Assembly: GCA_030528625.1 (NCBI GenBank) | Contig: JAUMYN010000001.1 | Span: forward strand, 248,001 to 312,000 | DNA length: 64,000 nt | Source: Candidatus Saccharimonadota bacterium | Lineage (GTDB): Bacteria; Patescibacteriota; Saccharimonadia; Saccharimonadales; Saccharimonadaceae | Reading direction: 5' to 3' | Shown here: positions 5,420 to 5,816 of the stretch, in pieces | How the letters are laid out: each line of letters starts with the position of its first letter | Position numbering within the stretch: position 1 is the stretch's first letter | The notes under the pieces: generated by a model | Seen by the model: only the letters and a program-made list of their open reading frames with translations | Databases searched by the model: none | Told to the model about the DNA's origin: nothing | Program-made: the position numbers and the translations under genes

Positions 5420-5494
5420 TGGTGCGGATGGGGAGAGTCGAACTCCCGTCTCAACCTTGGGAAGGTCACATAATAGCCGTTATACGACACCCGC
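5420..5494 (-). tRNA. tRNA-Gly(CCC)
   Basis: Cloverleaf on the minus strand: acceptor GCGGGTG/CATCCGC, anticodon loop TTCCCAA (anticodon CCC, codon GGG), T arm GGGAG-TTCGACT-CTCCC, discriminator A and encoded CCA. The CCA-proximal GCACCA can also pair with TGGTGC just downstream. Confidence 0.93.
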
Positions 5495-5565: not shown

Positions 5566-5641
5566 GGCTCTTTAGCTCAGTTGGTAGAGCAGAGGCCTGA
5601 AGAGCCTTGTGTCCCCAGTTCGAGTCTGGGAGGAGCCACCA
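5566..5641 (+). tRNA. tRNA-Phe(GAA)
   Basis: Acceptor GGCTCTT/AGGAGCC, D arm GCTC-AGTTGGTA-GAGC, anticodon loop CTGAAGA (GAA), T loop TTCGAGT, discriminator A and encoded CCA. A TATAAT box lies 20-25 nt upstream. It has the standard G18-G19 and C56. Confidence 0.95.
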
Positions 5642-5688
5642 GTATTGCAATGAGCGCGCGGCTTTGCTACAATAAGTCGTGACCACAT

Positions 5689-5764
5689 GCGGGTTTAGCT
5701 CAGTTGTTAGAGCGCTTCCTTGCCATGGAAGAGGCCAGGAGTTAGAGTCTCCTAACCCGCACCA
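5689..5764 (+). tRNA. tRNA-Gly(GCC) with altered elbow pair
   Basis: Acceptor GCGGGTT/AACCCGC, anticodon stem CTTCC/GGAAG with loop TTGCCAT (anticodon GCC, codons GGC/GGU), encoded CCA. The D loop is AGTTGTTA, compared with AGTTGGTA in the neighbouring tRNA-Phe, so position 19 is U. The T loop is TTAGAGT instead of TTCGAGT, so position 56 is A. The near-universal G19-C56 tertiary pair is thus replaced by a U-A combination that could still pair. A TACAAT box (5668-5673) precedes the gene and a hairpin terminator follows. Confidence 0.92.
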
Positions 5765-5785
5765 AAATGGAACTTTCTGAGATTT

Positions 5786-5816
5786 GGTCGCCCGACAGGG
5801 CGACCGTTTCCGTTTT
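5786..5816 (+). terminator. Terminator after tRNA-Gly(GCC)
   Basis: Eight-base-pair stem GGTCGCCC-GACA-GGGCGACC (5786-5805) followed by GTTTCCGTTTT. Confidence 0.75.

Follow-up and report, generated by a model that had tools for sequence, protein, structure and literature searches.

A compensated U19-A56 elbow pair in place of G19-C56 in the tRNA-Gly(GCC) of a Saccharimonadia genome

Introduction

The G19-C56 pair of the tRNA elbow is conserved so strongly that few comparative data show it covarying. Altered elbow nucleotides are found in the degenerate tRNAs of metazoan mitochondria. The face of the 19-56 pair is read by the ribosome (through the A-site finger, uL5 and the L1 stalk), by RNase P and by T-box RNA (PMC4810234). 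Many proteins, too, recognize this exposed surface. Alanine and glycine are named as isotypes whose codon-anticodon helices are GC-rich and require special conservations if decoding is to be uniform (PMC7566577). A changed position 19 has been described in the staphylococcal wall tRNA-Gly species, in which GG at positions 18-19 is replaced by UU or CU and pair 51-63 is A-U; glycine and alanine are the typical substrates of Fem enzymes (PMC4052509).

Here we describe a tRNA-Gly(GCC) gene in which U19-A56 takes the place of G19-C56. The gene lies in a 64,000-nucleotide stretch of DNA, all of which was analyzed (the window), from a Candidatus Saccharimonadota bacterium. A search of the open-access full-text literature, in which novelty was checked, found neither 'A19-U56' nor 'U19-A56' in these hyphenated spellings, and nothing relevant among published Saccharibacteria tRNA studies.

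Results

The tRNA-Gly(GCC) gene is located on the forward strand at 5689-5764 and comprises 76 nt, including an encoded CCA and discriminator A73 (ARAGORN, Rfam RF00005). It has the cloverleaf and the GCC anticodon (5722-5724; read from the sequence and by ARAGORN) of an elongator tRNA-Gly(GCC). The Rfam tRNA model RF00005 gave it 68.6 bits against a gathering score of 29, the second-best value among six window tRNAs, and flagged no non-standard pair. The D loop reads A14 G15 U16 U17 G18 U19 U20 A21, with G18 retained and U19 in place of G19 (5706-5707, forward strand, from the sequence and scripted numbering). The T loop, UUAGAGU at 5742-5748 on the same strand, reads U54 U55 A56 G57 A58 G59 U60; A56 stands in place of C56, and U54, U55 and A58 are canonical. 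Scripted numbering placed G18 at 5706, U19 at 5707, U54 at 5742, U55 at 5743 and A56 at 5744. A first-pass annotation had proposed that U19-A56 replaces G19-C56, and ARAGORN, the Rfam alignment and the scripted numbering all bore this out; its position for base 19 (5707) was right, but base 56 had been placed one nucleotide off, at 5745, which is G57. Thus G19-C56, a near-universal though not strictly defining trait of elongator tRNA-Gly(GCC), is lacking from this gene, and the remaining elbow and core contacts (U8-A14, G15-C48, G18 with U55, and U54-A58) are canonical.

Directly 5' of the gene is a promoter-like TTGCAA-17-TACAAT (5645-5673, forward strand), and 3' of it a hairpin resembling an intrinsic terminator, TGGTCGCCCGACAGGGCGACCG, is followed by a T-rich tail (5785-5806, forward strand); both assignments are consensus matches only. 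The neighboring tRNA-Phe(GAA) (5566-5641, forward strand) and tRNA-Gly(CCC) (5420-5494, reverse strand), both called by ARAGORN, have the canonical G19-C56.

The genome that contains the window has 788,276 bases, is 99.99% complete and encodes 44 tRNA genes by ARAGORN. All 43 other tRNAs have GG at 18-19 and C56, which extends to the whole genome what the first-pass annotation had seen in the few tRNAs it checked; Gly(CCC) and Gly(UCC) are both G19-C56. The GCC isoacceptor of glycine is encoded by a single gene, and no second, canonical tRNA-Gly(GCC) was found among the 44 tRNAs. In 14 ribosomal protein genes of this genome, 176 of the 183 glycine codons (96%) are GGU or GGC, so tRNA-Gly(GCC) should do almost all of the glycine decoding there. 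Sole gene and codon usage together identify it as the supplier for GGC and GGU, in agreement with the earlier argument that a sole GCC isoacceptor must serve translation. Elsewhere in the genome, an inverted-repeat-rich stretch holds a tRNA-like sequence with predicted anticodon AAA, C33 and a GC-rich anticodon stem (L021 1501-1571; G000:C3:376367-376437).

The first-pass annotation had also considered a specialized glycine donor possible, and an altered position 19 is indeed what the staphylococcal wall tRNAs show (PMC4052509). A dedicated, non-translational donor of this kind is highly improbable here, and the proposal is contradicted on several counts. The GCC gene is single, with no extra gene of the staphylococcal type, and GGU and GGC dominate the glycine codons. 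G18 is present, unlike in the wall tRNAs, whose positions 18-19 read UU or CU, and the T loop is altered in step with the D loop. Of the weak EF-Tu pairs A49-U65 and A51-U63, A49-U65 is present but 51-63 is G-C, a strong EF-Tu pair, in 37/37 distinct sequences of the class. We therefore rejected the wall-donor reading on the sole gene, the codon demand and the retention of G18 and G51-C63.

To survey the class to which the genome belongs, we used a pattern allowing any base at position 56. An initial search of 61 genomes had found tRNA-Gly(GCC) in most relatives, in two states, U19-A56 and A19-U56. The survey covered 147 class genomes, of which 137 matched. All 137 readable genes had a complementary pair (U19-A56 in 115, A19-U56 in 22), with no G-C, no mismatch and G18 retained throughout; these counts include many relatives, and the independent events are represented by a tree minimum of 10. 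Ten genomes were unmatched: three were partly resolved with other patterns, and seven gave no readable tRNA-Gly(GCC). One unmatched genome read A-U with other patterns, and another had A56 with the D arm beyond the contig end. In two genomes of 98-99% completeness tRNA-Gly(GCC) was not found with several patterns; an assembly gap, an intron or absence are possible. The third of the partly resolved genomes (G463) carries a gene (L337 1462-1537) with U19-A56 in which A58 is changed to G and the acceptor stem has a mismatch; this gene has the look of a copy that is decaying or rearranged, and a second fragment of its 3' half lies slightly more than 100 bases downstream.

The probability that U19-A56 is a sequencing error, contamination or the mark of a pseudogene is negligible: the tRNA-Gly(GCC) gene is 100% identical (76/76) in seven other genomes, four of them belonging to other genera, 137/137 class genomes carry a compensated non-GC pair, and the Rfam score is 68.6 bits. 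Chance and sequencing error are therefore excluded.

The history of the pair was followed on a quick tree of nine concatenated ribosomal proteins with 72 class rows. On it, the pair must have switched between U-A and A-U at least 10 times inside the class. The orientation flipped inside one genus, with three genomes set against three others, and a further genome differed in orientation from its own genus. Stem pair 28-42 of this gene served as an internal control: it changed 18 times on the same tree and visited all four Watson-Crick states (T-A, A-T, G-C and C-G). U8-A14, G15-C48, U54-A58, U55 and G51-C63 were invariant in the 37 distinct class sequences. With at least 10 flips, no mismatches and a freely varying 28-42, pair 19-56 is therefore free to take either orientation but not to mismatch, and it was not seen as G-C. 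The earlier suggestion of compensated change rather than decay is strongly supported by these comparisons of gene sequences: positions 19 and 56 covary across relatives, and no readable class gene carries only one of the two changes.

Other tRNAs of the class were examined in 61 class genomes with a generic pattern open to any anticodon but fixed to a CTCA...AGAG D arm, which places Pro, Leu, Ser, Cys and others outside its reach; isotypes were assigned by reading the anticodon loops. It revealed 19 further tRNAs with a non-GC 19-56 pair, all complementary: 16 Ala (six GGC, six CGC and four UGC), two Gly (one UCC, one CCC) and one Val(GAC). A19-U56 was present in tRNA-Ala from 13 genomes and in the Val(GAC), and U19-A56 in Gly(UCC) and Gly(CCC), each from a different genome. 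Separately, tRNA-Cys(GCA) of four class relatives has A18 and G19 with U54, G55 and C56; here G18-U55 is changed jointly on both sides to A18 with G55, and G19-C56 is retained. The tRNA-Cys of the window genome is canonical, unlike that of these relatives.

Outside the class, most tRNA-Gly(GCC) genes in 157 sampled Patescibacteria genomes are G19-C56, and A-U occurs in few. Matches to the phylum-wide pattern were mostly chance and were counted only if ARAGORN confirmed a tRNA. A19-U56 was present in two of these Patescibacteria, and in one family and a single further genome from a larger sample. A wider scan covered species-representative genomes and asked for Gly(GCC) genes with neither G19 nor C56 and with any discriminator except A; it returned at least 80 loci. 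Among the matches listed, the Gly(GCC) genes read were all A19-U56, though nine base combinations were allowed; one listed locus gave no ARAGORN call. These listed matches came from Clostridia, Bdellovibrionales, Labilibaculum, Flavobacteriales, SAR86, Sporolactobacillus and Patescibacteria. The state is thus sporadic in Clostridia, Bdellovibrionales, Bacteroidota, Gammaproteobacteria and some Patescibacteria. In the phylum of one Clostridia MAG with A19-U56, only the MAG itself matched among 149 genomes (generic GCTC-type pattern, tRNA hits). Among the genomes with A19-U56 from this wider scan, 21/21 named ones checked with one pattern showed no canonical copy beside the altered tRNA-Gly(GCC). 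The discriminator is A73 in the class and U73 in most altered relatives outside it. The elbow change is therefore rare and scattered elsewhere and, as far as read, fixed in the class of the window genome.

Altered Gly(GCC) genes read in viral contigs were likewise all complementary, and included C19-G56 in two contigs (L345 and L356). In four viral contigs (these two, L343 and L362), canonical tRNAs occur together with several tRNAs of different isotypes whose 19-56 pair is changed on both sides, to A-U or C-G; in L356 the altered elbows belong to, for example, Thr, Arg, Gly, Ala and Gly tRNAs.

Viral tRNA sets with compensated altered elbows in different isotypes would fit an escape of tRNA-Gly and tRNA-Ala from cleavage by toxins or anti-phage nucleases that recognize the G19-C56 elbow. 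We consider such an escape improbable as the driver in the class.

Two FemXAB-type transferases (PF02388) were predicted in the window genome. They are encoded by divergent genes lying back to back on opposite strands (G000:C2:114253-116403; L339); the better one matches FemA (1lrz, E 3e-21) and a lipid II:glycine glycyltransferase (6snr). From its translation, we take the adjoining ORF to resemble TsaD. With two FemAB-family genes present, translation and wall synthesis may both use glycyl-tRNA, and an altered elbow might aid FemX/MurM-like enzymes in drawing Gly-tRNA or Ala-tRNA for peptidoglycan bridges while translation is retained. The FemA-like character of the better protein fits this dual use, as does the identity of the altered isotypes, Gly and Ala being the typical Fem substrates (PMC4052509). 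It is set against by the retained strong EF-Tu pair G51-C63 and by the 21/21 genomes without a canonical copy beside the altered one. The same A-U change also occurs in Bdellovibrionales and Bacteroidota, which are not known for Fem-type wall bridges. Overall, dual use is quite improbable.

Discussion

Taken together, the comparisons indicate that the gene very probably encodes an ordinary translating tRNA-Gly(GCC) with a compensated and constrained elbow pair. It would serve as a working elongator for the GGC and GGU codons, in which a Watson-Crick pair other than G19-C56 underlies the elbow: U19-A56 here and A19-U56 in sister lineages. The pair would form the usual flat elbow face that is read by the ribosome, through the A-site finger, uL5 and the L1 stalk, and by RNase P. 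Since the known readers contact this flat face, a Watson-Crick replacement should keep the platform; elbow geometry would be conserved while the pair itself is weaker.

As to the reason for the A/U elbow, a weaker pair may be favored where the codon-anticodon helix is very GC-rich, as for Gly(GCC) and also for Ala and other Gly tRNAs. The changes are concentrated on Gly and Ala, the isotypes singled out for GC-rich helices (PMC7566577), which suggests tuning of decoding. This is our leading guess at the reason, and a rather doubtful one: those Arg tRNAs of the window genome whose anticodons are GC-rich keep G19-C56, and the altered elbow also occurs in Val(GAC). In its broader form, the proposal is a class-wide selection against G19-C56 in tRNA-Gly(GCC), and often in tRNA-Ala, that favors a weak A/U pair in either orientation and tunes ribosome passage for particular isoacceptors. 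We put this forward tentatively, as a possibility. If such isoacceptor-specific selection is true, the near-universal G-C elbow would be a feature open to tuning, not one that the structure requires.

The main rival to tuning is neutral compensatory drift, in which the exact bases at 19 and 56 barely matter as long as they pair, the ancestral G-C was lost once (for example via G-U to A-U), and random flips have followed. Drift is a plausible account, if short of a probable one. Every altered pair that was read directly is complementary, all three alternatives exist (A-U, U-A and, in viral tRNAs, C-G), and A-U also arose sporadically in distant phyla. It is weakened by the lack of any return to G-C in 137 genomes, although A-U to G-C requires two transitions via a G-U wobble, the easiest route back, whereas the U-A/A-U switches, at least 10 of them, were double transversions. 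It also sits poorly with the near-fixation of G-C elsewhere, as in the Clostridia phylum where the MAG was the sole match in 149 genomes, and with the concentration of changes in Gly and Ala tRNAs. The absence of G-C in the class could partly reflect one ancestral loss combined with a low reversal rate.

Two other drivers were considered and dropped. Misfolding through complementarity between the D loop and the anticodon loop was dropped because the cloverleaf is predicted with similar probability for the two pairs (0.23 with U19-A56 and 0.27 with G19-C56). The idea that the change acts as an anti-determinant, keeping off the elbow-reading C-terminal domain of AlaRS, was set aside because Ala tRNAs of the class are altered at the elbow in a similar way.

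The class provides a natural set in which pair 19-56 of an essential single-copy tRNA was rewritten at least 10 times with complementarity always kept. It amounts to a mutational experiment performed by nature on a tRNA element regarded as nearly invariant, and makes it testable why G-C is kept elsewhere and whether weaker elbows balance strong codon-anticodon helices.

Compared with the canonical bacterial tRNA-Gly(GCC), as found in most other Patescibacteria sampled, the class shares the cloverleaf, the anticodon, U8-A14, G15-C48, G18-U55, U54-A58 and the acceptor start GCGG, but has U-A or A-U, not G-C, at 19-56. Eukaryotic tRNA-Ala, with its unusual tertiary pairs, offers a parallel: it too has a GC-rich codon-anticodon helix, and in it too a tertiary pair that is otherwise near-universal has changed in a particular isotype; the pairs concerned differ, being 15/48 and 54/58 there and 19-56 here. 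Unlike in metazoan mitochondrial tRNAs, a single pair is changed, the change is compensated and the other contacts are intact. The likeness to the staphylococcal non-proteinogenic tRNA-Gly used by FemXAB lies in a glycine tRNA with a changed position 19; the staphylococcal species have lost both G18 and G19 (UU or CU) and have A51-U63 (PMC4052509), whereas the window tRNA keeps G18 and G51-C63, compensates U19 with A56 and has no other GCC gene beside it.
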